Positions 9,552-64,000 of a stretch of DNA of 64,000 nt are shown in pieces. The translations under genes and the position numbers were made by a program. Source of the stretch: Amycolatopsis nigrescens CSC17Ta-90 (GTDB taxonomy: Bacteria; Actinomycetota; Actinomycetes; Mycobacteriales; Pseudonocardiaceae); contig NZ_ARVW01000001.1 of assembly GCF_000384315.1 (NCBI RefSeq), positions 1,063,746 to 1,127,745 on the forward strand, read 5' to 3'. A model generated the notes under the pieces. The model was not told the origin of the DNA and did no database searches. It worked only from the letters and a program-made list of their open reading frames with translations. The stretch's first letter is position 1. Every line of letters starts with the position of its first letter.

Positions 9552-11957
9552 GTGACAGTGGCCGTGCAGTCGGTGCAGCAGAAGATCGCCGAAGAACTAG
9601 GGGTACGCGAGAACCAGGTCAAGGCGGCCGTCGACCTGCTCGACGGCGGCTCGACCGTGCCGTTCATCGCCAGGTACCGCAAGGAAGCCACCGGCATGCT
9701 CGACGACGAGCAGCTGCGCACGCTGGAGGACCGGCTGCGATACCTGCGTGAGCTGGACGAACGCCGGGGCTCGGTACTGGAGTCGATCCGGAGCCAGGGC
9801 AAGCTGGACGAGGCGCTGGAAGCGCAGATCATGGCCGCGGACACCAAGTCGCGGCTGGAGGACATCTACCTCCCCTACAAGCCGAAGCGCCGCACCAAGG
9901 CGCAGGTGGCCAGGGAGGCCGGCCTCGAACCGCTCGCGGACGGCCTGCTCGGCGACCCCTCCACCGATCCGCAGGCGGCGGCCGCGGTGTTCGTGGACGC
10001 CGAGAAGGGCGTGGCCGACGCGGCCGCGGCGCTGGAAGGCGCCCGCTCGATCCTGGTCGAGCGCTTCGCCGAGGACGCCGACCTGATCGGCGAACTGCGC
10101 GAGAAGATGTGGGCCGAAGGACGGCTGGCGTCGAAGGTCCGCGACGGCAAGGCCGACGAGGGCGCCAAGTTCTCCGACTACTTCGAGTTCTCCGAGCCGT
10201 TCACCAAGATGCCCTCGCACCGCATCCTGGCCATGTTCCGCGGCGAAAAAGAAGAGATCCTCGACCTCACTGTCGAGCCGGAGGAGCCGGCCGATGACAC
10301 CGCTGGGCCGCGCGTGGGGCCGACCGACTACGAGCGGCGGATCGCGCAGAAGTTCGGCGTCACCGACGAGGGACGGCCGGGCGACAAGTGGCTCAACGAC
10401 ACCGTGCGCTGGGCCTGGCGCACCAAGATCCTGCTGCACCTCGGCATCGATCTGCGGCTGCGGCTGCGGCAGTCGGCCGAGGACGACGCGGTGCGCGTGT
10501 TCGCCGCGAACCTGCGTGACCTGCTGCTGGCCGCCCCGGCCGGCACCCGCGCCACGATGGGCCTCGACCCGGGCTTCCGCACCGGGGTGAAGGTGGCCGT
10601 GGTGGACGCGACCGGCAAGGTGGTCGACACCCATGTGATCTACCCGCACCAGCCGGCCAACAAGTGGGACGCCTCGATCGCCGAGCTGGCGAAACTGGCC
10701 GCCCGGCACCAGGTGGACCTGATCGCGATCGGCAACGGCACCGCGTCCAGGGAGACCGACAAGCTGGCCGGCGAGCTGATCAAGAAGCACCCGGAGCTGA
10801 AGCTGACCAAGGCCGTGGTGTCCGAGGCCGGTGCTTCGGTGTACTCCGCGTCCGCGTTCGCCTCGCAGGAACTGCCCGGCATGGACGTTTCGCTGCGCGG
10901 CGCGGTGTCCATCGCCCGGCGGCTGCAGGACCCGCTGGCCGAGCTGGTGAAGATCGACCCGAAGTCGATCGGGGTCGGGCAGTACCAGCACGACCTGTCC
11001 GAGGTCTCGCTCTCCCGCTCGCTGGACGCGGTGGTCGAGGACTGCGTGAACGCGGTCGGGGTGGACGTCAACACCGCCTCCGCACCGCTGCTGACCCGGG
11101 TCTCCGGCATCACCACCGGCCTGGCCGAGAACATCGTCGGGCACCGCGACGAGCACGGCCCGTTCCGTTCGCGCGGCGCGCTGAAGGAGGTGCCGCGGCT
11201 GGGGCCGAAGGCGTTCGAGCAGTGCGCGGGCTTCCTGCGCATCCCCGGCGGCGAGGACCCGCTCGACTCCTCCAGCGTGCACCCGGAGGCCTACCCGGTG
11301 GTGCGCCGGATCCTGTCCGCCACCAGCACCGAGCTGCGTTCGCTGATCGGCAACACCCGCGCGCTGCAGAAGCTGCGGCCACAGGACTTCGTGGACGACA
11401 CCTTCGGCCTGCCGACCGTCACCGACATCCTGGCCGAGCTGGACAAGCCAGGCCGCGACCCGCGGCCCGCGTTCAAGACCGCGACCTTCGCCGAGGGCGT
11501 GGACAAGCTCTCCGACCTCAAGCCGGGGATGCGGCTGGAGGGCGTGGTGACCAACGTGGCGGCGTTCGGCGCGTTCATCGACGTCGGCGTGCACCAGGAC
11601 GGCCTGGCGCATGTATCGGCGCTGTCGAAGAACTTCGTCAAAGACCCGCGTGAAGTGGTGAAGCCGGGCGACATCGTCAAGGTGAAGGTGCTCGAGGTGG
11701 ACATCCCGCGCAAGCGGATCTCGCTCACCCTCCGGCTGGACGACGAGCCGGGCGCCGGTGGCGGCGAGCAGCGCCGCTCCTCCGGTGGCGGCCGCGACGG
11801 CGGCGGCAACCGCCAGGCCCAGCGCAAGGGCGGCCAGCCACGCCGGCAGGGCCGCGACTCCGGCGGCTCGGGTGGCTCCGGTGGCTCGGGTGGATCCAGC
11901 GGTGGCGGCGCCCTCGCCGACGCCCTCCGCCGCGCCGGCTACGACAACAAACGCTGA
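9552..11957 (+). CDS. tex: Tex-family S1 RNA-binding transcription accessory protein
   Basis: A protein of about 801 residues with the conserved Tex order: N-terminal helical domain ([25 protein letters not shown]), YqgF/RuvC-like domain ([16 protein letters not shown]), helix-hairpin-helix region ([19 protein letters not shown]) and a C-terminal S1 domain ([31 protein letters not shown]). Tex proteins bind nucleic acid and influence transcription and stress tolerance. After S1 comes a Gly/Ser/Arg/Gln-rich tail of about 60 residues, probably disordered and RNA-interacting. The GTG at 9552 was chosen because it gives the family's usual N-terminus ([13 protein letters not shown]) with a GAGGGCGGA upstream; the frame is open to 9477. 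Confidence 0.93.
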
Positions 11958-11965
11958 CTCTCTCC

Positions 11966-12018
11966 GGCAAATAGCCGGCTTTTCGCCCATCCAAAGGGCA
12001 GAAAGCCGGCTATTTGCC
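11966..12018. terminator. Bidirectional terminator between tex and the convergent nitroreductase gene
   Basis: Perfect 17-base arms (GGCAAATAGCCGGCTTT at 11966-11982 and its complement at 12002-12018) surround a 19-base loop. It begins 8 bases after the tex stop and ends 14 bases from the end of the leftward gene. Confidence 0.85.
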
Positions 12019-12032
12019 TTCCCCGGGGTGGT

Positions 12033-12944
12033 CTAGGCGGCGAGGGCGGCCGGGAAGGAGAGCAGGTCCGCCAAGGGGCGCCTTGGTGTGGGCGGCAGCG
12101 GCGCCGAATCCTTGACCACCCGGCCAAGGCGCAGCACGGCATGGGGAAAGGCGCCGTCCAGCACCCTGGTCCGGAGCAGCGTGCTGACCCCGGCGCTCGC
12201 CAGCGGTTCGGTCAGCGCGCAGGTGGCAAGGCCGAGCGCGGTGGCGGCTAGCAGCAGCGCGCTCATCGCCTCACCGGCCCGCAGCCGGGACAGCCGGTCG
12301 TGCGCGCGGGTGCCCAGCGCGAGGAACATCGACTGGCCGTCCTCGTCCACCAGCGCGTTGCCCTCGTCCGCGAGCAGCGCCTCCGGGGTCGCGTGCAGCC
12401 TCGCCGCCGCCGCGAGCTCGAGCAGGTAGTCGGGCTCCAGCCGATACATCCTGGCCGGCAACGCCACCACGTACGCCAGCCGCCGTCTGGTCAGCGAGTC
12501 ACCGGCGATCCGGACCACCGCGCCTTCCACGCCCGCGTGCGCGATCAGCGCGGCGACCTGGGACCGCGGCACGAACCACGAGCTGTATCGCCGCCGGTCG
12601 GTCCGCCGCAGCGGGATCGCCGCGGCCATCGCCCGTTCGTCACCGGAGGGCGCGCCGCGGTACGGCAGCACCGTGGCCAGATGCGAAGGGTCGGCCGGCT
12701 CGGGCAGCCGGTGCACCCTGCTCCGCCAGCCGGACGCGGCCAGCGCCACCCGCAGGTGATGCAGCGCGGCCCCGCAGTCGAGCAGCGACTCCGGGCGGCG
12801 TTCGGGATCGGGGCGGGCATGCAGGTGCAGGCACCGCTCTTCGAGCCGCCAGTGCCACGGCTGCGAGTTGCGTGCGGACGGTGCCCGTGCGGCGAGCGCC
12901 AGCGCGGCCAGCACGGTGTCCTGATCCGGCGATCCGTAGTCCAT
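12033..12944 (-). CDS. Acg-like nitroreductase-family FMN protein
   Basis: A 303-residue protein of the nitroreductase fold in the mycobacterial Acg (Rv2032) subgroup: APSARNSQPWHWRLE at the N-terminus, the conserved DCGAALHHLRVALAASGW, RRTDRRRY, and a C-terminal ATALGLATCALTEPLA. Acg-type proteins bind flavin and are members of dormancy regulons rather than proven nitroreductases. The ATG at 12944 has GGAGG 9 bases upstream. It is the last gene of a leftward group with DevS-like and DevR-like genes; a degenerate DosR-box-like sequence lies 63 bases upstream. Confidence 0.85.
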   Translation of the reverse strand: MDYGSPDQDTVLAALALAARAPSARNSQPWHWRLEERCLHLHARPDPERRPESLLDCGAALHHLRVALAASGWRSRVHRLPEPADPSHLATVLPYRGAPSGDERAMAAAIPLRRTDRRRYSSWFVPRSQVAALIAHAGVEGAVVRIAGDSLTRRRLAYVVALPARMYRLEPDYLLELAAAARLHATPEALLADEGNALVDEDGQSMFLALGTRAHDRLSRLRAGEAMSALLLAATALGLATCALTEPLASAGVSTLLRTRVLDGAFPHAVLRLGRVVKDSAPLPPTPRRPLADLLSFPAALAA

Positions 12945-13006
12945 CGAAGTACCTCCGGCCGAAGGGAACTTCCGGACCGAAGATGGCAGCCTGGCGCGGG
13001 CGCACG

Positions 13007-13026
13007 GCAGGGCCGAAAGACCTCCG
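13007..13026. promoter_or_regulatory. Candidate degenerate DosR/DevR box upstream of the Acg-like gene
   Basis: The segment contains GGGCCGAAAGACC, matching 11 of 20 positions of the mycobacterial consensus TTSGGGACTWWAGTCCCSAA, including the GGG, AAAG and CC core. It is 63 bases upstream of the gene. By itself the match is weak; the gene context is the reason to note it. Confidence 0.3.
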
Positions 13027-13066
13027 AAGGCCGGCCACTCGGCCCCCGAACGGCCCTGAGCTGCGC

Positions 13067-14698
13067 CTAGGGCAGGGGTGCGGACCAGGCCAGTCTGGTG
13101 CCGCCGTCCCACACCTTGGTCACTGCCATCCGGCCGCCCGCCGCGTCCGCCCGCTGGACGAGGTTGTGCAGCCCGCTGCGGGCCGCCGAGTCCGGGATGC
13201 CCACTCCGTTGTCGGTGACCACGATGGCCAGATCGTCGGCCACCGACACGGTCAGGTTCACCGTGGTCGCCCTGGCGTGCCGCACCACGTTGCTGACCGC
13301 CTCCCGCACCACCGCCTCGGCATGGTCGGCCAGCGCCGCCGGCACCACGCTGAGCGGCCCGGACATCCGCACCGTGGAGCGCAGCCCGGCGTCCCCGGTC
13401 AGCTCGGCGATCACCTCGTGCAAGCGCTTGCGCAGCTGGCCGCCGCCCTGCGCGCCGTCGTGCAGGTCGAAGATCGCGGTGCGGATCACCCGCACCAGCT
13501 CCTGCAGCTCGTCCACGATCTCGCCGATCCTGACCTGGATCTCCGGCGACCTGCTGCGCTGCTGGGTGCTCTGCAGGGAAAGCCCGATCGCGAACACCCG
13601 CTGGATGACGTGATCGTGCAGATCGCGCGCGATCCGCTCCCGGTCGGCCAGCAGGTCCAGCTCGCGCTGCCGGCGCTGGTCGCCGGCCAGTTGCAGGGCG
13701 AGCGCGGCCTGGTCCGCGAAGGAGGCCATCAACGGCAGCAGCTCCGGGCCGAATGGCCGGCCGCCCCGCGCACGCAGTGCGGCCAGTACCCCGGTCACCG
13801 AGTCGCCGGCCCGCAGCGGCAGCACGAGCGCGGCCCCGAACGCGGCCCCGGTGCCGGTGGCGAGATCGTAGGTCAGCGCGGGCACCCGGCGCGGCGCCTT
13901 GCCGCGGAACACCTCGCCGCAGGTGGAGCCCTGGATGGGAATCGCGCGGCCGGTCAGCGCACCCGCGTCCAGCCCGGCGCAGACCCGGACCACCAGCTCC
14001 GGCACCTCCTCCGCGGGCAGCTCGGGGTCGTCCGCCAGTGCGATGAAGGCGTAGTCGGCCTCCGCCAAGTCTCGCGCCCTGGCGGCGATCAGGTTCAGCA
14101 CCTCTTTGCTGTCGGTGGCCACCAGCAGGGCCGACCTGATCTCCGCGGCCGCCTCACGCCAGCGCTCGCGCGCACGGAGTTCCTCGTAGCGACGGGCGTT
14201 CTCCACCGCGATACCGGCCGCCGCTGCGAGCGCCTGCAGCACCACCTCGTCCGCCTCGGTGAACGCGGCGCCGTCCTCCTTCTCACTGAGGTGGAGGACG
14301 CCGAAGACCTCGTCCCGCACCAGCACCGGGACGCTGAGCAGAGATCGCAGCGCCGGGTGGTGCTCCGGAAAACCCTCCGCCGCCGGATGCGCGGACAGCT
14401 CGTCCAGGCGCAGCGGTGCGGCCCGCGCCGGCACCACACCCAGCAGGCCACGCCCGGTCGGCATCCCGCCGATCGCCTGGCAGACCCGCTCGTCGAACCC
14501 TTCGCAGAGGAACTCCGCCAGCCCGCCACCGGGAGCGAGCACGCCCAGCGCGCCGTAACGCGCGTGCACCAGCTTCCTGGCCACCCCGACGATGCGCTTC
14601 AGGGTGGGCCGCAGCTCCAGCCCCGAGCCGACCTCGAGCATCGCTTCGACCAGACCGTCCATCCGGCCGAGCGGACGCGGTCTGCCACCCTCGGTCAC
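13067..14698 (-). CDS. devS: DevS/DosT-like two-GAF sensor histidine kinase
   Basis: A 543-residue cytoplasmic kinase with two tandem GAF domains (about residues 20-165 and 185-340), a HisKA_3 dimerisation/phosphoacceptor segment ERIARDLHDHVIQRVFAIG (His near 359) and a C-terminal HATPase with NVVRHA and DNGVGIP. This is the DevS/DosS/DosT architecture, in which the first GAF may hold haem and sense O2, NO or redox state; haem ligation cannot be confirmed from sequence. The nearest start is GTG at 14698; ATG at 14662 is an alternative. It lies 63 bases after the devR-like gene, its obvious partner. Confidence 0.88.
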   Translation of the reverse strand: MTEGGRPRPLGRMDGLVEAMLEVGSGLELRPTLKRIVGVARKLVHARYGALGVLAPGGGLAEFLCEGFDERVCQAIGGMPTGRGLLGVVPARAAPLRLDELSAHPAAEGFPEHHPALRSLLSVPVLVRDEVFGVLHLSEKEDGAAFTEADEVVLQALAAAAGIAVENARRYEELRARERWREAAAEIRSALLVATDSKEVLNLIAARARDLAEADYAFIALADDPELPAEEVPELVVRVCAGLDAGALTGRAIPIQGSTCGEVFRGKAPRRVPALTYDLATGTGAAFGAALVLPLRAGDSVTGVLAALRARGGRPFGPELLPLMASFADQAALALQLAGDQRRQRELDLLADRERIARDLHDHVIQRVFAIGLSLQSTQQRSRSPEIQVRIGEIVDELQELVRVIRTAIFDLHDGAQGGGQLRKRLHEVIAELTGDAGLRSTVRMSGPLSVVPAALADHAEAVVREAVSNVVRHARATTVNLTVSVADDLAIVVTDNGVGIPDSAARSGLHNLVQRADAAGGRMAVTKVWDGGTRLAWSAPLP

Positions 14699-14761
14699 CG
14701 GTCAAGCCTGGCACTGGTCCCCGCGCTGTGCCAGCCCCGTTCGTGGCCGGTATTTCGGCCG

Positions 14762-15391
14762 TCACCACCGTAGTTTCGCGGCCAATGCGGCGATCTGCGC
14801 GCGCCGTTGCATACCGAGTTTCGCGAGCAGCCGGGAAACGTAGTTCTTCACGGTTTTCTCGGCCAGATGCATTCGTTCCGAGATCTGCCGGTTGGTGAGC
14901 CCTTCGCTGATCAAATTCAGCAGCACGCGTTCCCGCTCGGAAAGCGCCTCCAGCGGATCGGCATTCTCCACATCGGTCCGCAGCTTGGCCATCAGCGCCG
15001 CCGCGGCCCTGTTGTCCAGCAGCGAGCGGCCGGAGCCGACCTCGCGCACCGCGGAAACCAGCTGCATTCCGCGGATATCCTTGATCACATAACCGCCGGC
15101 CCCGGCAAGAATCGCGTCGAGCATGGCCTGTTCGTCGGTGAACGAGGTGAGCATCAGGCAGTTCAGCGCCGGCAGCTTCGACCGCAGCTCACGGCAGAGC
15201 TCGATCCCGCTGCCGTCCGGCAGCCGCACGTCCAGCACGGCGATGTCGGGCCGCAGCGCGGGAACCCTGGCCAGCGCCTGGGACACCGTGCCCGCCTCGC
15301 CGACCACGGCCAGTTCCGGATCGGCCTCCAGCAGATTGGCGATACCGCGTCTCACCACTTCGTGGTCGTCGACCAGGAATACCTTGATCAT
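14762..15391 (-). CDS. devR: DevR/DosR-like NarL-family response regulator
   Basis: A 209-residue response regulator that resembles mycobacterial DosR almost throughout: [36 protein letters not shown] with phosphoacceptor Asp54, [33 protein letters not shown], and the LuxR-type helix-turn-helix [20 protein letters not shown]. It should activate a dormancy/hypoxia gene set when phosphorylated by the adjacent DevS-like kinase. It follows the flavin-binding protein gene by 22 bases, so the leftward order is flavoprotein, devR, devS, then the Acg-like gene. Confidence 0.93.
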
Positions 15392-15413
15392 GCGCCACCT
15401 TCTCGTTCCGGCC

Positions 15414-15809
15414 TCAGGTTACGGCGATGCGCTCACCGATGGCCAGTTCGACTTCGACCGCGATATAACGCGCGTCGGCCGGCGACCAGCCGCGGAGACC
15501 GAGATCGGCCAGTTGGGCGCATTCGGAACGATCACGGATTTCGGTGGCGCGGCCGATCACCCGCACGGTCCAGCCCACCGTCAGGTCCGCCGCGAACCGG
15601 TCCGCCTGGAATGCCACCACCGCCCCCTTGATCGCGGTCGCCATCTGCTGGTCCTCACCGACCCGGAAAACGACAACGCCCTCCCGGAGCAGGAAATTGA
15701 CCGGCCGGATGGCGGGCATCGCATTGTCCGTGTACACCACCCGGCCGAGGGAGACGCTGCCGAGCAAGCGCAGGCACTCACCGTGCCGCAAGGTCTCCGC
15801 ACCGATCAT
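15414..15809 (-). CDS. Pyridoxamine 5'-phosphate oxidase-like flavin-binding split-barrel protein
   Basis: A 131-residue split beta-barrel protein of the PNPOx-like family ([28 protein letters not shown]..., [39 protein letters not shown]). Such proteins bind FMN, F420 or haem, and several belong to the mycobacterial DosR regulon. The ATG at 15809 follows AAAGGGG; a GTG at 15839 is a weaker alternative. It heads the leftward dormancy module and is divergent from a second nitroreductase-like gene. Confidence 0.85.
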
Positions 15810-15942
15810 TCCGCCCCTTTCCCCAGAACTCCTCGCCACCCGCCCGTCCCTGCGGTGTCCCGCAGAGCCCCACTGTGCTCGCGGTCCGGATCACACGCCA
15901 GGGGCCGAGCAGCGCGGACCGGGGTGACCGTCGGCCCCGGAT

Positions 15943-15962
15943 TCAGGGACCAAAGCCTCTTC
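15943..15962. promoter_or_regulatory. Candidate degenerate DosR/DevR box between divergent dormancy genes
   Basis: Contains GGGACCAAAGCCTC, matching 11 of 20 positions of TTSGGGACTWWAGTCCCSAA with an intact GGGAC and AAAG. It lies 81 bases upstream of the rightward nitroreductase-like gene and 133 bases upstream of the leftward flavoprotein gene. Confidence 0.35.
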
Positions 15963-16043
15963 GAACTCCCGGTCACCCGGCACACGCTGTTGGCTTGGTG
16001 CGGGCCGGCAAGCCACGGTTCGCGAAGACTGGAGGCTGAGCAG

Positions 16044-16868
16044 ATGACCATCCGACTTGGTCTTGGCCGGCCCTCTGGCGGCGCGCCCCGGAGCGACCGC
16101 GAGAGCACCGTGCACGCCCTGATCACCGGCAGCCAGATGCACACCGCGCTGCAGGCCGCCGCCCGGGTGCCTTCGGCCACCCCGGCCCGGCCATGGCGGA
16201 CCGAGACCAGGGGTGACCGGATCGAGCTGCTGCTCGCCGAAGACCGGCTGCCGGGCGGCGGGGCGCAGACCCGTGAGGTGCTGCTGTCCTGCGGCGCGGT
16301 ACTGCTGAACCTGCGGGTGGGCCTGCGCGCGGCCGGCCGCGGATCGGTCACGCACCTGCTGCCGAGCCGACGTCGGCCAGTGCACCTCGCCACCGTCTGG
16401 CTCAACGGCGCCCGCCCGACGACCCGCGCCGACCAGGCGCTCTACCAGGCCATCTCGCACTGCTGGCCGAACCGCCGCCCGTACGGCGAGCAGCCGTTGC
16501 CACCGGAACTGCGGCGGTCACTGGTCAAGGCCGCCCGCAGCGAGGGCGCGGAGCTGGTGCTGGACCGGCCGTCCGGCGAGGAGGACGAGCCGACGGTGGC
16601 GCGGCTCGTGCTGCGGGACGAGAGCATCCGCGGCTACCTCTGCGCCGGCCAGGCACTGCAGCGGGTGCTGCTCACCGCGACCGCCGCGGGGGCCGGTGCG
16701 GGCGTGCTCTACCAGCCGCTCACCGACGGCACGGAGAGCACCGAAAGCACAGTGCTGCGCCGCCTGCGCCACGACGCGGCACTGCCGGTGATCGTGCTCC
16801 GCTTCGGCTACGGCTCGTCCGCACAGCTTCCGGTGCCGGTCCAGCGCCCACCGCGACTCGCCTCGTGA
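16044..16868 (+). CDS. Nitroreductase-family protein, Acg-related
   Basis: A 274-residue protein related to the Acg-like gene at 12033-12944: ALQAAARVPSATPARPWRTE corresponds to the N-terminal APSxxNSQPW segment, though the NSQ is lost here, and LLSCGAVLLNLRVGLRAAGRG plus LCAGQALQRVLLTATAAGAGAGVLYQPL follow. The ATG at 16044 has GGAGG 8 bases upstream. Loss of the usual flavin-contacting residues suggests a divergent or non-catalytic flavin-binding role. Its position opposite the devR module, with a DosR-box-like sequence upstream, makes it a probable member of the same stress regulon. Confidence 0.75.
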   Translation: MTIRLGLGRPSGGAPRSDRESTVHALITGSQMHTALQAAARVPSATPARPWRTETRGDRIELLLAEDRLPGGGAQTREVLLSCGAVLLNLRVGLRAAGRGSVTHLLPSRRRPVHLATVWLNGARPTTRADQALYQAISHCWPNRRPYGEQPLPPELRRSLVKAARSEGAELVLDRPSGEEDEPTVARLVLRDESIRGYLCAGQALQRVLLTATAAGAGAGVLYQPLTDGTESTESTVLRRLRHDAALPVIVLRFGYGSSAQLPVPVQRPPRLAS

Positions 16869-55948: not shown

Positions 55949-57058
55949 TCAGCCGACCGACCAGTCGCGGTTCATGGCCTCCTCCAGGAGGGTCTCCACG
56001 ATCTGGCTTTCCGGCACGGTTTTGATCACTTCCCCGCGGACGAAGATCTGCCCCTTGCCGTTGCCGGAGGACACGCCGAGATCGGCTTCGCGGGCCTCGC
56101 CCGGCCCGTTCACCACGCAGCCCATCACGGCCACCCGCAGCGGCGCCGGGAAGCCGTCGAAGGCGGCGGTCACCTGTTCGGCCAGTTCGTACACGTCCAC
56201 CTGCGCTCGCCCGCAGGACGGGCAGGACACGATCTCCAGCCGGCGCGGCCGCAGCCCCAGCGATTCCAGGATCTGCGCGCCCACCTTGATCTCCTCCACC
56301 GGCGGTGCGGACAGCGACACCCGGATGGTGTCGCCGATCCCGTCCGCGAGCAGCACCCCGAAGGCCACCGCGGACTTGATGGTGCCCTGGAACCGCGGCC
56401 CCGCCTCGGTGACCCCGAGGTGCAGCGGATAGTCGCAGCGCTCGGCGAGCCGGCGGTACGCGGCGATCATCACCAGCGGATCGTGGTGCTTGACCGAGAT
56501 CTTCAGGTCACCGAACCCGTGCTCCTCGAACAGCGAGCACTCCCACAGCGCGGACTCCACCAGCGCCTCCGGGGTGGCGCGGCCGTGCTTGGCCAGCAGC
56601 CGCTTGTCCAGCGACCCGGCGTTGACCCCGATCCGGATCGGCACCCCCGCACCGTCCGCCGCCCGCGCGATCTCCTTGACCTTGTCGTCGAACTTGATGA
56701 TGTTGCCGGGGTTCACCCGCACCGCCGCGCACCCGGCGTCGATCGCGGCGAACACGTACTTCGGCTGGAAGTGGATGTCCGCGACCACCGGGATCTTCGA
56801 CTTCCGCGCGATCATCGGCAACGCGTCCGCGTCGTCCTGCGACGGCACCGCGACCCGCACGATCTCGCAGCCGGCCGCGGTCAGCTCGGCGATCTGCTGC
56901 AGGGTCGCGTCCACATCCGCGGTCAGCGTGGTGGTCATGGACTGCACCGACACCGGTGCCCCGCCGCCCACCGCGACCCCGCCCACCAGCACCTGCCGGG
57001 ACGTCCGCCGCGGCAGCTCCGGTTGCACCGACGGCATGCCAAGCTCGACCAGGGTCAT
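55949..57058 (-). CDS. ispG: 4-hydroxy-3-methylbut-2-enyl diphosphate synthase
   Basis: A 369-residue iron-sulfur enzyme that converts MEcPP to HMBPP, the penultimate MEP-pathway step. Seen are the TIM-barrel N-terminal part ([56 protein letters not shown]) and the [4Fe-4S] ligands in SCPSCGR and [11 protein letters not shown]. The ATG at 57058 overlaps the dxs stop (ATGA). Last gene of the terpene nanocompartment operon. Actinobacteria usually have an ispG elsewhere, so this is probably a second, pathway-dedicated copy. Confidence 0.95.
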
Positions 57059-58839
57059 CAGCACTCCTCGGGATTCAGTCCGGTGATGAGGTCCAGCACC
57101 GCGTTGCGAATGCCTTCCGCGTCCAGGCCGTGCGCCCGCAGCAGCTCGCCGCGGGCCGCGTGCGGGAGAAAACCGGGCCGCAACGCGCGGGTCGCCACGG
57201 TGCGTTCCGGCAGCGCCTGCGCCAGCCTGGCGCCGAGCGAGCCGGTCGCGACGGCGTCCTCCACCACCAGCACCTTCCGGTGCGCGCCGGCCAGTTCGAG
57301 CAGCGCCGGGTCGAGCGGCGCGACCCAGCGCGGATCCACCACGGTGACCTTCGGCCCGAGCGCGGCCAGCTCGGCCGCCGCGGCTAGGCAGGGCTCCGCC
57401 ATCGGGCCGACCGCCACCAGCAGCACGTCCGCGGCGGCCGGGACATCCGCGGCCACGCGCAGCAGGTCGCAGCCGCCGATCCGGCGCACCGCTGGCAGGT
57501 CCGGCCCGAGCGCGCCCTTGGGGTAGCGCAGCACGGTCGGCCCGTCCCGGACGTCGACCGCCTCGGTCAGCAGCTCCCGCAGCCGGGCGCCGTCGCGGGG
57601 TGCGGCCAGCCGCAGCCCCGGCACCACCGGCAGCACGGACGCGTCCCAGACCCCGTGGTGGCTCGGCCCGTCCTGGCCGGTGATGCCGGCCCGGTCGGCC
57701 ACCACGGTGACCGGCAGCCGGTGCAGCGCCACATCCATCAGCAACTGGTCGAAGGCCCGGTTCAGGAAGGTCGAGTAGATGGCCACCACCGGGTGCAGCC
57801 CGCCGAGGGCCAGCCCGGCTGCCGACGTGATCGCGTGCTGCTCGGCGATGCCCACGTCGTACACCCGGTCCGGGAACCGCTCGGCGAACCGGCCGAGACC
57901 GGTCGGGCCGAGCATCGCCGCGGTCACCGCCACCACGTCCGGCCGGACCTCGGCGATCTCGGCGAGCCGCGCGCCGAACACCGAGGTCCAGCCCACCGCC
58001 GATGGCTTGCCGGGCCGTCCGGTGACCGGGTCCACCACCCCGACGGCGTGCAGGCAGTCCGCCTCGTCCTGTTCGGCGGGCGGGTAGCCCTTGCCCTTGC
58101 TGGTCACGCAGTGCACCACCACCGGCCGGTCCAGCGCGACCGCGCACCGCAGCGCGTCCTCCACCGCGGCCACGTCGTGCCCGTCGACCGGGCCGAGGTA
58201 GCGGAGCCCGAGCGTCTCGAACAGGTTGGCCCGCGCCGGCCCGCGCAGCCGGGCGAGGTGGCCGGACAGCCCGCCGACGGTGGGCGCGTAGGAGCGGCCG
58301 TTGTCGTTCAGCACGATGATCACCGGCCGGTGCGGGGCGCCGGCGAGGTTGTTCAGCGCCTCCCAGCACATGCCGCCGGTGAGCGCCCCGTCGCCGACCA
58401 GCGCGACCACCCGGCGGTCCAGCTCACCCCGATGGGCGAACGCCTTCGCCAACCCATCGGCGTAGCTGAGCGCGGTCGAGGCGTGCGAGTTCTCGATCAC
58501 GTCGTGCACCGACTCGGCCTGCGACGGATAGCCGGACAATCCACCGGACTGGCGCAGTGAGCCGAACTCGCCGGCCCGCCCGGTGATCATCTTGTGCACG
58601 TAGGACTGGTGGCCGGTGTCGAAGAGCAGCACGTCCCGCGGCGAGTCGAACACCCGGTGCAGTGCCAGCGTCAGCTCCACCACGCCCAAGTTCGGCCCGA
58701 GGTGGCCGCCTGAGCGGCAGACCCGGTCGATCAGGAACTCGCGGATCCGCCCTGCCAGGTCGAGCAGCTGACCGGCGGAGAGCTCGCGCAGCCCGGCCGG
58801 TCCCGGAATGGCGGTGGACGGCTCGGCCTGGGTGGTCAT
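57058..58839 (-). CDS. dxs: 1-deoxy-D-xylulose-5-phosphate synthase
   Basis: A 593-residue thiamine-diphosphate enzyme that condenses pyruvate and glyceraldehyde 3-phosphate, the first and flux-controlling MEP step. Motifs: [37 protein letters not shown], ThDP-binding [16 protein letters not shown]...NDN, and the transketolase catalytic region [17 protein letters not shown] and [15 protein letters not shown]. Somewhat shorter than typical Dxs (about 620-640). Overlaps both neighbours by 3-4 bases. A dedicated dxs copy would raise precursor flux to the adjacent terpene genes. Confidence 0.95.
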
Positions 58840-59819
58840 CCCCGCCTCACCGCCGAGGGCAGCGTGAAGTGGATGCTCTCCCTGGCGGTCTCCCGCTCCT
58901 CGACCGTCACCGGCCCGAGCCCGCCCAGCGCGGTGACCACCTCCTCGACCAGCCGGGGCGGCGCGGAGGCACCCGCGGTCAGGCCGAGCACCCGCACTCC
59001 GTCCAGCCAGTCCGGCCGCAGGTCACCGACGTCGTCGATCAGGTACGCGGGCGTGCCCTGCCGCCGCGCCAGCTCCACCAGCCGCACCGAGTTCGACGAG
59101 TTGCCCGAACCGACCACCAGCACCAGCTCCGACTCGTTCGCGATGGCCCGCAGGGACAGCTGCCGGTTGGTGGTCGCGTAGCAGATGTCGTCCGAGCCCG
59201 GCCCGCGCAGGGCGGGAAACCTGGCCCGCAGCGCCTCGACCACCTCCGCGGTCTCGTCCACCGCCAACGTGGTCTGGGTCAGGTAGGAGACCCGCTCCGG
59301 GTCGGGCACCTCAAGCTCCGCCGCCTCGGCCGCGCTCTGCACCAGCACGGTGTGCTCCGGCGCCTCGCCGAGGGTGCCTTCGACCTCCTCGTGCCCGGCG
59401 TGCCCGATCAGCACCACGGTGTCCCCGCGTCCGGCGAACCGCAGTGCCTCGTTGTGCACCTTCGTGACCAGCGGGCAGGTCGCGTCCACCGCGTCGAGGC
59501 CGCGCCGCGCGGCCTGCGCGCGGACGGCCGGCGCCACCCCGTGCGCGGAAAAGACGACGGTTGCGCCTTCGGGCACCGTGTCCAGGTCGTCCACGAACAC
59601 CGCGCCCCGCGACTCGAGGTCGGCCACCACATGGCTGTTGTGCACGATCTGCTTGCGCACGTAGATCGGCCCGCCGCGGCTGTCCAGCAGGTTCTCCACC
59701 ACTTCGATGGCGCGTTCCACCCCGGCGCAGAACGATCTCGGCGCGGCCAGCAGCACCGTGCGCGGGCCGGTCACCGCCCGCCAGGCCGGGTGTTTCGGAT
59801 CGATCGGGTCGGCTGGCAT
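58836..59819 (-). CDS. ispH: 4-hydroxy-3-methylbut-2-enyl diphosphate reductase
   Basis: A 327-residue [4Fe-4S] enzyme that reduces HMBPP to IPP and DMAPP, the last MEP step. The three cluster cysteines are at 31 (PRSFCAGV), 115 (DATCPLV) and 213 ([11 protein letters not shown]); conserved substrate-binding segments include [25 protein letters not shown] and [11 protein letters not shown]. The ATG at 59819 lies 32 bases after the polyprenyl synthase gene. Together with dxs and ispG it supplies C5 units to the encapsulated terpene enzymes. Confidence 0.95.
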
Positions 59820-59851
59820 CGATTCGTCTCCCTGGAGGGTCGGACCGGATT

Positions 59852-60901
59852 TCAGCGGTCGCGGCGGATGATCAACCTGGCCAGTGCCGCCAGTTCGGCG
59901 GCGGGCACCGGCGGCGCCGCGCCGGCGGGCGGGACGTCCAGCAGGCTCAGCGCACCGGCCAGCAGCTCGTCCGCCCTGGTCTGGCTCCAGCTCCGGCCGC
60001 CCGCGTCGTCGACCAGCTCCGCGGCGCGCACCAGCTCCGCCCCGGACAGCGGCCGGTCGAGCCGGTAGAGCGCGGCCAGCTCACGGGCGCCCGGCGTGCC
60101 GGTGGCCAGTGCGGCCACCACCGGCAGCGACTTCTTCCTGTTCTGCAGGTCGGAGTACACCGGCTTGCCGGTCACCGCGGCCTGGCCCCAGATCCCCAGC
60201 AGGTCGTCCACCAGCTGGAAGGCCACCCCGACCCGTCTGCCGAACTCGCGCAGCCGTTCCACCTGGCCCCCATCCGCGCCGCCGAACAGGCCGCCGATCG
60301 CGCAGGCGCAGCCGAGCAGCGCCCCGGTCTTGCTCTCGGCCATCCGCAGGCATTCGGCGAGCTCCACGTCGTCCCGCCGCTCGAAGGACATGTCCGCGCT
60401 CTGCCCGTCCACCAGGTCCTGCACCGCGGCGCTGAGCAGGCGCATCCCGTCGGCGGCCCTGGGGTGGCCGCTGGCCGCGAGCACGTCCAGCGCCAGGGTC
60501 AGCAGGGCGTCACCGGCCAGGATCGCCGCGCCGGTACCGAACACGGTCCACGCCGCCGGCCGGTGCCGCCTGGTGACGTCACCGTCCATCACGTCGTCGT
60601 GCAGCAGGGAGAAGTTGTGCACCAGCTCGACCGCGACCGCGGCCGGTACCGCGGCCGGCGGCGCGCCACCGGCGAGCTCGGTGGCCAGCAGCGCCAGTGC
60701 GGGACGGATCGCCTTGCCGGCCGCGCCTTCGGTCTCCCGGCCGGTCTCGTCGCACCAGCCGATGTGGTAGCCCGCGACGACGCGCATGGACTCCGGTAGT
60801 GACCCGACAGCCTCCCGAAGTGCCGGGTCGAACTCGCCGCGACTCCACGCGAGCACCTCACGCGCCGACCGGCCCGTCGGCCGGACCTCCAGATCCGTCA
60901 T
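59852..60901 (-). CDS. Polyprenyl diphosphate synthase, probable family 2 encapsulin cargo
   Basis: A 349-residue trans-prenyltransferase that elongates IPP/DMAPP to a linear prenyl diphosphate. The first Asp-rich motif HDDVMDGD is at 101-108; the second is DDLLG (232-236) instead of DDxxD. GKAIRPAL and [12 protein letters not shown] are family signatures. The N-terminal segment [22 protein letters not shown] resembles the polyprenyl transferases found beside family 2B encapsulin shells. The ATG at 60901 has AGGGAG next to it and GAGGGG upstream, 13 bases after the shell gene. It probably makes farnesyl (or geranyl) diphosphate for the cyclase; chain length is not readable by eye. Confidence 0.88.
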
Positions 60902-60914
60902 CTCCCTGTTCCCC

Positions 60915-62321
60915 TCAACGACCGATTTCGACGTTCTCCAGCACTCCGAGCGCATCCGGCACCAGCACCGCCGCGGAGTAGAAGGCACTGGCCACATAGG
61001 ACACGATCGCGCGGTCGTCGATGCCGCCGAAGCGCACCGAGAGCCCTGGCTCGTACTCGTCCGGCATGCCGGTCTGGTGCAGGCCGACCACTCCGTGGTC
61101 CTCCACTCCGGTGCGGAACGCCAGTATCGAGCTGGTGCCGGTGGCGCTGATCGGGATCTTGTTGCAGGGCAGCATCGGAACCCCGCGCCAAGCCTGCATC
61201 TGCCTGCCCTCGAACTCCACAGTGGACGGATAGACACCGCGCCCGGAACACTCCCTGCCGAAGGCCGCGATGGTGCGCGGGTGGGCGATGAAACACCGGG
61301 TCTTGCGCCGGCGGCAGAGCAGCTCGTCCAGATCGTCCGGGGTGGGCGGTCCGGTCCTGGTGTACAGCCGCTGGGCGAGGTCGGCGTTGTGCAGCAGACC
61401 GAAGTCCGTGTTGTTGACCAGTTCGTGCTCCTGCCGCTCCCGCAGCGCCTGCACGGTCAGCCGCAGCTGCTCGTCGAGTTGGTTCATCGGCTGGTTGTAG
61501 AGGTCGGCCACCCTGGTGTGCAGCCGGAGCACGGTCTGCGCCAAGCTCAGCTCGTACTCGCGCGGCTTGATCTCGTAGTCCGCGAAGGTGGCGGGCAGGT
61601 CGACCTCGCCGTCGTGCCCGGCGGCCAGTGCGATATCGGCCTCACCAGACTTGTTGCTCGGCGGCTTCCGCCCGGAGGCCAATGCCTGGATGTGCTGGCG
61701 CAGCGGCACCGACTGCCCGTTCATCTCCTGGAAGGCGTTGCCCGGCAAAGAAAGCAGGATGCACGGGGTGTTCGCCTTGATGGTGAACTCCCAGCTCCCA
61801 CCCTGGCCGGCGAGCAGTTGCTCACCGAAGTACTGGCCGTCACCGAGCACCCCGAGCACGTTCTGGCCGCCGTACTCGCCGGCCCCCAGCTTGGTCACCT
61901 TCCCGTGCGCGATGAGCACCAGCTCCTCGGCCGGTTCACCGGCACGGACCAGCACCTCGCCCGCCTCCGCGGTGCGCTGCTCGAACCGGCCGGCCAATGC
62001 GGCTAGCGCCTCCTCGTCCTCGAAACCCCGCAGCAGCGGCAGTTCGGCGAGCTCCTGCGGGACGACCCGCACCTGGTCGCCTTCGGACAGGAAACTGACC
62101 CGGCCGTCGCCGACGACATAGCTCAGCCGCCGGTTGACCCGGTAGGTACCGGAGGACGCCTCGACCCAGGGCAGCACCCGCAACAGCCAGCGCGGCGTGA
62201 TGCCCTGCATCATCGGCGGGGTCTTGGTCGTGGTCGCCAGGTTCCGCGCGGCCGCGGTGGTCAGGCTGGACGGTTGCGCCGGGGCGTCACTGCCCGGCTG
62301 TTCCAGATCGGTCAAAGTCAC
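60915..62321 (-). CDS. Family 2B encapsulin nanocompartment shell protein with cyclic-nucleotide-binding-like domain
   Basis: A 468-residue protein that should assemble into an icosahedral protein shell. Order: extended N-terminal arm (to about residue 60), cNMP-binding-like barrel inserted at about 90-205 ([25 protein letters not shown] ... [11 protein letters not shown]), then the HK97-type shell domain (about 225-468: [76 protein letters not shown]). In the phosphate-binding cassette the usual Arg is a Trp (177). The GTG at 62321 overlaps the cyclase stop (GTGA). Neighbouring cargo genes fit known 2B systems. Confidence 0.92.
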
Positions 62322-64000
62322 CTTGCACCCCAACTGCTCTCGAAGTTCCTGTTCAGCAATGCGCCGATTCGGGTGATCTCAGTGCCCAGCCCGCTCGGTG
62401 CGCCGACGAGGCCGGGTAGCCGCGCGTCCGGCGGCCGTGGTTCGCGGTAGCGGCCGGACGTCGACTCCCACAGCAGGTCACCGGCAAGCCAGTCCTGCAG
62501 GCCGCGGACGTAGGCCCCGAGGTGCGTGTTCGCGACCTCGTCCAGCCCGAACCGCTGCCCGAGCCCGGGCAGCTCCCGCGCGGCCACCTCTTGGAACTGG
62601 CGCAGCCGCGAGGAGACCAGGTCGTTCAGGATGTGCGCAGCCCGCGCCGGATCGAGGTCGAAGAACTTCCGCACGACCACGACCCCGTTGTTGATGCCGC
62701 CTTCGGTACCGGCCTCCTTCGGGTAGGAGATGATGTCGTTGCGCAGCGCCGAAGTGTCGGCGAAGGTGTCCGCCAGCGTGCGCATCGGCGCCGAGTCGAA
62801 CAGTTCCGCCGGCAGCGCGGTACCCAGTGCGTGCCGGACGAGCAGCAGGGAGAACCGCGCGCCCGCGGTTTTGCGGCGCATCTCCAGCAGATCCACCGGG
62901 TCCGGCACGCGGTTCTGCGCGACGTTGGCGAGCTCCCACAGCATGCCGCGGGCGAACTCCATCAGCCCGGCGGCGAACTCCCGCCGCAGGTCCTCGGGCA
63001 TCCCGGCCACCGTGCGCGGCCACAGGTCCGCCAGTCCCCACTCCACCGGGTTCTCCGGCGCCGGCGTGGCAGAGACGTCGGGGACGTCGGTGTCCTCCAC
63101 CGGCATGAACTCCGCGAGCCGCTCCACGAACACCCGTGCCCCGGCCTGGTCTCCGGTGCGTTCGAAGGTGGCGGCGAACAGGTCGTCCAGGAAGAAACGC
63201 CAGACGTGCCAGTCGACGACCAGTTCCAGTGCCGCACCCGGCACCCGGGGATGGGTCAGCGCGCCGAACCGGCCGAAGTCCATCGCGTCGAACGCCGGCG
63301 TGCTCCAGATCCCGGTGTCCAGCATGCCCAGCTCATCGGCCCATGCCTTGGCCCGGCCCCGCGCGGCCGCCAGTCCCGGGTTCGTCCTGGCCCGGAAGGG
63401 CATGGTGAACTCCGGCCGCGGGAAGTCGTGATCACTACCGGGCAAGGGAAACGGGCGGCTGTGCACGATCCGGTGCTGCAAGGCGCTGCGGGCCGAACGC
63501 AGCCGCGCCGCGCCGGCCCCGAGACCCGTCGGCCCGGTCGGCCCCTGCGTCCCGGGCTGCCCGTCGTTCATGTAGCGGCCCGCCCGCAGATGCCACTCGT
63601 GCCCGCCGGACTGCCAGTCCTGCAGCCCCTGCACGTACTTGAGCACGTTCAGCCGGTCCTCCGGGGCGAGACCGTATTCCTCGAACATCGGCGCCAGTTC
63701 GGTGAGCGCGGTGTTCTCGAACTGGTGCAGCCTGGAGGTCAGCAGGTCGTTGGTCACGTTCGCGGCCCGCTGCGGATCGATGTCCAGGAACCGCTCCAGC
63801 ACCAGCACCCCGTTGTTGAGCTCGCCCTCCACCTCCGTTTCCCGTTGGTAGGACATGATGTCGTTGCGCAGGTGCACCCCGTCGGCGAAGGTGTCCTTCA
63901 GTACTCGCATCGGCCGGGTGCCCGCGACGGCGGCCGGTACCTCCGCCCCGTTGGCGACCTCGACCAGATCCGCCGACCACGGGGCGCCGCCCACCCGCCG
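62318..64000 (-). CDS. geoA: Two-domain terpene cyclase, geosmin-synthase-like, probable encapsulin cargo (5' end outside window)
   Basis: About 560 C-terminal residues of a bifunctional class I terpene synthase; the start is beyond the right edge. The first domain shows its Mg-binding NSE motif [19 protein letters not shown] and the geosmin-family run [20 protein letters not shown] ... [19 protein letters not shown]. After a Gly/Pro/Ser linker the second domain shows [12 protein letters not shown], where the third acidic residue of DDxxD is missing, and a second [22 protein letters not shown]. Geosmin synthases (about 730 residues) have this layout, making geosmin from FPP, but another sesquiterpenoid is possible. 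Confidence 0.85.

Follow-up and report, generated by a model that had tools for sequence, protein, structure and literature searches.

What does the run of leftward genes at the end of a 64,000-nucleotide stretch of the Amycolatopsis nigrescens CSC17Ta-90 genome encode, and does it amount to a terpene-producing nanocompartment with a precursor supply of its own? This stretch (hereafter the window) corresponds to G000:C1:1063746-1127745 in a single-contig genome of 9.11 Mb. An earlier note on it had described a six-gene leftward operon consisting of a two-domain terpene cyclase, a Family 2B encapsulin shell, a polyprenyl synthase, ispH, dxs and ispG. Family profiles and coordinates bear out these genes, their direction and their order; the list was incomplete, as just beyond the window edge there is another shell gene, Enc1. 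The operon has seven genes and reads Enc1–cyclase–Enc2–PT–ispH–dxs–ispG, where PT is the prenyl synthase. It is the known Family 2B two-component layout with a terpene cyclase and a PT (TC/PT), plus three genes of the methylerythritol phosphate (MEP) pathway. What is unusual in it is the type of cyclase and the completeness of the precursor supply arm. The earlier observation is confirmed and its interpretation partly supported; overall, we consider it probable that the locus encodes a terpene nanocompartment of the two-component Family 2B type that has a precursor arm of its own.

All seven genes lie on the reverse strand and are tightly packed. The DNA upstream of position 64000 completed the cyclase gene (62318..64000, cut by the window edge and continuing to 64567; 749 amino acids) and revealed Enc1 at about 64573-65991, its end lying 5 bases upstream of the cyclase. 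Enc2 (60915..62321, start codon GTG at 62321) overlaps the cyclase gene by 4 bases and is followed after 13 bases by the PT gene (59852..60901, start codon ATG at 60901). A gap of 32 bases separates PT from ispH (58836..59819), which overlaps dxs (57058..58839) by 4 bases, and dxs in turn overlaps ispG (55949..57058) by 1 base. As had been noted, four of the five junctions among the six genes overlap or lie within 13 bases, PT/ispH being the exception; these distances depend on the start codons judged most likely. A consensus scan of the operon found no promoter and no coding-strand terminator, and none before Enc1 either, so this result carries little weight.

Both shell genes belong to Family 2B, as had been proposed for Enc2. 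Against the Family 2B model NF041163 (cut-off 400), Enc1 reaches 772 bits and Enc2 746 bits, and both match PF19307 and PF00027, that is, the SrpI-like HK97-type domain with an inserted cyclic-nucleotide-binding domain (CBD). Residues 14-467 of the 468 in Enc2 align to a solved shell, and expectation values (E) against 9bix, 9bhu and 9bje are all below 1e-180 (best 9bix, E 3e-189). The available text of a 2025 report assigns 9BJE and 9BIX to the Streptomyces lydicus pair and 9BHU to the S. griseus shell, and gives TVWK and RRRK as diagnostic motif 1 of a shell pair (PMC12407261). Here it reads VWK in Enc1 and RRRK in Enc2, so that two shell genes of the Enc1 and Enc2 motif types stand within 10 kb, as in two-component Family 2B systems. 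The HK97-type assignment of Enc2 rests on its sequence likeness to solved shells, the predicted structure model being too poor to use. The cyclic-nucleotide-like domain recognized earlier is present as the CBD insert, but such domains are reported there, on a preprint's authority, not to bind cyclic nucleotides (PMC12407261).

The order of the operon is above chance, since the full order recurs in Amycolatopsis anabasis (L030: the same seven genes in the same order) and shorter or expanded versions occur in other genomes. A Pseudonocardiales metagenome-assembled genome (L038:8614-20981) carries Enc-TC-2MIBS-methyltransferase-Enc-PT-ispH-dxs-ispG, 2MIBS being a 2-methylisoborneol (2-MIB) synthase; the Nocardiopsis chromatogenes record (L100) shows Enc-TC-Enc-PT-ispH and stops after ispH; and ten Actinomadura loci have Enc-TC-Enc-PT, with no MEP genes in the stretch. 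For named genomes, recurrence was scored from a scan with the second cyclase domain, using the best 80 of 422 confirmed matches. Two further arrangements were seen: L118:2501-12669 reads Enc-TC-(P450-like gene)-PT-ispH-dxs-ispG, the P450-like gene, recognized by eye, standing at the Enc2 position, and a genome of the same genus has a 3' shell remnant (G069:C4:524576-524740, in L110) directly before an intact PT-ispH-dxs-ispG.

The cyclase is the first of the two unusual parts. Family profiles and a structural model (mean predicted local distance difference test, pLDDT, 84.6) give two folded class I domains, with long disordered stretches only at residues 335-378 and 712-749. Itself aside, its nearest relatives are 46-60% identical, and no close relative was found among the best 120 of 5,192 proteins above threshold. 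The first domain aligns over the full length of the geosmin synthase structures 5dw7 and 5dz2 (E 3e-141 and 2e-139), groups with all other first domains in a tree and is 64% identical to the first domain of the genome's normal two-domain geosmin synthase (G000:C1:1487524-1489773; L029:9525-11774), which no shell gene adjoins. The second domain is only 36% identical to that synthase and clusters with Actinomadura, Spirillospora and A. anabasis proteins, apart from geosmin-type second domains; we call this lineage C'. It scores 344 bits against a hidden Markov model (HMM) of the geosmin synthase (GS) N-domain and 354 bits against that of the GS C-domain, compared with 312 and 541 bits for the C-domain of the lone geosmin synthase. 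An NCBIfam alignment hinted that C' might be a copy of the N-domain; we rejected this, as C' is about equidistant from both by the purpose-built HMMs and a joint domain tree, in which three domain groups are visible along with several long branches. Both domains keep the NSE motif, an Arg placed 46 residues ahead of it and an RY pair, which we take to be the pyrophosphate-sensor Arg, NSE and RY motifs of the active sites, and we infer that the cyclase is active.

Among the loci examined here, C' is a cyclase lineage found only beside shells. A shell gene was present at 14 of 14 C' loci and at 13 of 66 geosmin-type loci when the two types were separated by HMM over the same best 80 of 422 second-domain matches (Fisher p 1e-8, uncorrected for relatedness). 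A PT stands in the same locus in 17 of 19 C' cases; in the other two (L037 and L040), the record stops inside the cyclase or no more than 365 bases past Enc2. The second domain is not of the geosmin-forming lineage, and the operon cyclase is, judging from its sequence, probably not a geosmin synthase, contrary to the geosmin link drawn in the earlier note.

The evidence that the cyclase may be cargo comes from short tags. Like GS-like cargo, it has two cyclase domains with a GPTGLGTSAAR-type motif between them and another, weak one at the C-terminus. A profile of 233 tags taken from other cyclases, applied to 1,691 proteins from 111 loci, found 12-residue tags in the operon cyclase at residues 345-356 (63500..63535 on the reverse strand; 25.9 bits) and 723-734 (62366..62401, same strand; 13.8 bits), both GPTGLG-type and both in the two long disordered stretches of the model. 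Unrelated proteins encoded in the fetched loci (1,427) scored at most 10.9 bits; outside the cyclases, one of two 2-MIB synthase open reading frames (ORFs) reached 38.2 bits and scores were otherwise at most 10.9. The operon dxs has an 11.7-bit, 12-residue tag-like match at residue 311, within the enzyme domain; it probably reflects a motif of dxs rather than a tag, since other dxs proteins score up to 8.7 bits at the same place. Cyclase ORFs with a shell in the locus (31) had median best and second scores of 29.8 and 14.8 bits, compared with 17.2 and -10.2 bits for those without (57), figures that include a few clipped ORF starts and, among the 57, many related Streptomyces. In two genomes of one genus, the cyclase is split into two genes (L112:4153-6235 and L166:9020-11099), and each half ends in its own C-terminal tag (23.2 and 15.9 bits in L112; 25.2 and 17.9 bits in L166). 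The lone geosmin synthase nests among shell-linked synthases in the tree (84/86), and from its sequence it is a possible candidate for cargo loaded in trans by a shell from another locus.

A shorter part of the tag is shared with the shells themselves. Among cyclases, 32 of 105 ORFs contain the core LGT[SA]AAR; 2-MIB synthases have it in 8 of 12 ORFs and shells in 41 of 139, counting fragments. Elsewhere it occurs in one of 1,943 other proteins, and in none of 74 PT, 42 ispH, 33 dxs and 15 ispG ORFs; the looser L[GS]T.AAR is found in 90 of the 139 shell ORFs. Where present, the shell core sits in the N-terminal arm (N-arm), just before an RWLL stretch, in a comparison of 57 shell N-termini. 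The link shows only with this 7-residue core: tried as an N-arm detector and rejected, the 12-residue profile scored shells no better than background (median -5.8 bits for 59 shell ORFs; mean -8.0, standard deviation 5.0 for the 1,427 others). Given the kinship among the shells, a few loci that are one genome under two handles (L074 and L150) and the failure of the full profile to pick out shells, we treat the sharing as a lead on loading, not as a result. A speculative extension, which we regard as unlikely, is loading by mimicry: the tag core would copy a 15-residue stretch of the shell N-arm, cargo would compete for N-arm docking sites, and an obligately shell-bound C' lineage would have co-evolved with the shell and with a PT-ispH-dxs-ispG arm grown stepwise. 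If true, it would give a simple rule for cargo loading and shell engineering. Eleven Family 2A loci served as a control, and their N-arm has LGDLAAR or a closely similar sequence; the Family 2A cargo motif is given as LARLANEFFS in the available text of its description (PMC8049743), and the idea that Family 2A cargo also copies the N-arm was dropped, as no match was found in the neighbouring genes of these loci.

The second unusual part is the supply arm. IspH (HMBPP, i.e. hydroxymethylbutenyl diphosphate, reductase), DXS (deoxyxylulose 5-phosphate synthase) and IspG (HMBPP synthase) all exceed their equivalog cut-offs (TIGR00216, 307 bits against 188; TIGR00204, 528 against 466; TIGR00612, 427 against 280). 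The genome holds three copies each of ispG, dxs and ispH, one of each in the operon, so the operon copies are extra. A search for the shell family in 249 genomes of the same order gave 49 loci whose Family 2B shell is full-length, grouped by hand and including the genome's own two; the 11 Family 2A loci and shell fragments in G062, G069, G118, G135 and G150 were set aside. Same-strand genes within 8 kb of the shell, scored by tblastn, included PT in 39 loci, a two-domain cyclase in 21, a 2-MIB-synthase type in 10, ispH in 20, dxs in 6 and ispG in 2; these counts are uncorrected for relatedness, and some records end near the shell. PT is present in all 20 ispH loci, ispH in all 6 dxs loci and dxs in both ispG loci, and ispH occurs in 20 of 39 PT loci but in 0 of 10 PT-free ones. 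From this co-occurrence pattern, the supply arm is nested and tied to PT, and the full MEP trio is rare. The earlier view that MEP genes are unusual here therefore holds for the trio (2/49) but not for PT-linked MEP genes in general, since ispH accompanies PT in 20 of the 49 loci and a 2021 survey, as far as its available text goes, already says that PT systems often encode precursor genes (PMC8346489).

Operon-type dxs was found in 28 of the 249 genomes and at 31 places outside its own genome, with a shell in the fetched stretch at four of them (L112, L114, L118 and L124). A second ispH-dxs-ispG trio lies at G000:C1:7956131-7960075 (L027), away from all four of the genome's shell genes; by eye, P450, ferredoxin and monooxygenase-like genes are near it. 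Some shell-linked IspH proteins (L142, L148, L152, L155 and L162) have an N-terminal extension, the LYTB domain starting at residue 80-119 in L142, L152 and L155 compared with residue 22 in the operon IspH; in these three, which were scanned, the extension had no Pfam match.

The expectation that a PT and a cyclase beside the shell serve as its enzymes fits the curated families in the case of the PT. It matches PF00348 and passes NF041169 ('family 2 encapsulin nanocompartment cargo protein polyprenyl transferase') with 476 bits against a cut-off of 450; the next-best model, the geranylgeranyl diphosphate (GGPP) synthase IdsB, gives 341 bits, below its cut-off of 475. An SAxExLAWSR-like N-terminal stretch is, by eye, frequent in shell-linked PTs and mostly missing in shell-free ones; we did not call it a tag, as it may be a plain enzyme helix. 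No paper giving a PT chain length was found in the literature on structure 3nf2.

Several observations weigh against the nanocompartment interpretation or parts of it. The C-terminal tag of the cyclase, at 13.8 bits, is barely above the 11.7-bit match in the operon dxs, and strong tags are kept in shell-free geosmin synthases (L031, L032, L035 and the lone one here, with 31.0 and 29.5 bits), which speaks against a strict reading of the tags. At 1040 bits, the cyclase falls short of the cut-off of 1200 for the cargo family NF041168, although two shell-linked geosmin-type cyclases tested were also just short (1185 and 1188) and the lone geosmin synthase scores 1190. Its first-domain metal motif is DDHFLK, with E in place of K in most of the 119 listed relatives, and support for the C' clade in the joint tree is weak (76/90). 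The Enc2 structure prediction is poor (pLDDT 54.6, predicted template modelling score 0.37). The PT lacks the LGT[SA]AAR core, so that it may lie inside the shell or only near it, and its product may be C20, unsuited to a cyclase of farnesyl diphosphate (FPP).

Taken together, we favour the following working model. Enc1 and Enc2 would co-assemble as a mixed shell, by analogy with the S. lydicus pair. The two-domain cyclase would be the main cargo, held, as its family suggests, by the GPTGLG-type tags in the linker and at the C-terminus. Its first domain, of the germacradienol-synthase lineage, likely cyclizes FPP; C' is a class I site of its own, its motifs intact, and the compound that it makes or converts is probably not geosmin. 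The PT would elongate C5 units inside or near the shell, and the extra IspH, DXS and IspG would raise the supply of isopentenyl and dimethylallyl diphosphate from the cytosol, where we place them because none has the tag core. The high terpene flux suggested earlier is a conjecture. The earlier proposal of two sequential enzymes inside the shell has tag evidence for the cyclase but none for the PT, and 19 of the 49 loci have a PT without a same-strand two-domain cyclase (the reverse occurs in one).

That last count also feeds a different explanation, in which the MEP genes together with PT serve as a module for another terpenoid, of C20 or longer, with the shell and cyclase only co-regulated. 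Twelve of those 19 loci have ispH (compared with 8 of the 21 cyclase loci), the confinement of ispH to PT loci points the same way, the same-genus genome keeps an intact PT-ispH-dxs-ispG behind its shell remnant, and IdsB is the next-best model for the PT. GGPP as the product is, however, an inference, the PT passes the curated encapsulin-cargo family, and it accompanies nearly every C' cyclase, the two exceptions being the truncated records; we find this explanation rather doubtful. That the compartment makes geosmin, the cyclase being a second geosmin synthase whose volatile or intermediate the shell contains, appears improbable: the resemblance of the first domain to that of the normal synthase, the two-domain build and the tags common to geosmin-type cargo would suit it, but the second domain lies outside the GS C-domain lineage in both identity and HMM scores, and a separate normal synthase makes a second one unnecessary. 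More improbable still is a single metabolon of all seven products with IspG and IspH inside the shell, shielded from oxygen. Both are 4Fe-4S enzymes, ispH is the MEP gene most often linked to shells, and the operon dxs has its tag-like stretch, though in the enzyme domain; yet the tag core is missing from every ispH, dxs and ispG ORF searched, and 43 of the 49 shell loci lack dxs and 47 lack ispG.

Two further features deserve mention. A divergent bestrophin-like membrane gene (PF14023) adjoins Enc1 past the window end (G000:C1:1130465-1131223; L005:18466-19224), and divergent relatives with at least 50% identity are near the shell in 8 of 48 other Family 2B loci. The genome's second Family 2B locus (G000:C1:682499-688095; L007, about 10500-16096) contains an Enc1, an Enc2 interrupted by an in-frame stop, a shortened PT, a methyltransferase and a strongly tagged 2-MIB synthase; the genome's 2-MIB synthase has a GPTGLG-like tag of 29.9 bits.

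How does the operon compare with known systems? The 2021 survey counted cyclases in 904 Family 2B operons, PTs in 900 and the two together in 165 clusters, and described the GPTGLGTSAAR motif (PMC8346489); 503 two-component operons were reported in 2025, including a TC/PT type in which PT comes right after Enc2 and the cyclase can sit between the two shell genes (PMC12407261), which is the arrangement found here. As far as the available text of these accounts goes, the published TC/PT operons and this one share two CBD-bearing shells, a cyclase between them and PT after Enc2, and what this operon has beyond them is ispH, dxs, ispG and the C' second cyclase domain; precursor genes are treated there in general terms only, and cyclases are divided into 2-MIBS-like and GS-like. 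Neither the seven-gene order nor C' cyclases were found described in the titles, abstract openings or available passages of the encapsulin literature on terpene, methylisoborneol, prenyl and ispH topics, bioRxiv and supplements excepted. Compared with germacradienol/geosmin synthase (5dw7, 5dz2), the operon cyclase is alike in its first domain and in having two class I domains, and differs in a second domain of another lineage and in one changed residue of the first-domain metal motif. The A. anabasis cyclase (L030) is 60% identical to it, and only the inter-domain tag was found there. The S. griseus shell (9bhu) is of the same family as the operon shells. That system reportedly has one shell protein and carries a 2-MIB synthase, a monoterpenoid cyclase, as cargo; the operon here has two shell genes, a PT and MEP genes. 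The available published accounts leave open how Family 2B shells pick up cyclases and what paired cyclase-PT shells make. With an uncharacterized shell-side cyclase lineage, a dedicated supply arm and a split form whose halves each bear a tag, this locus offers a compact test case.

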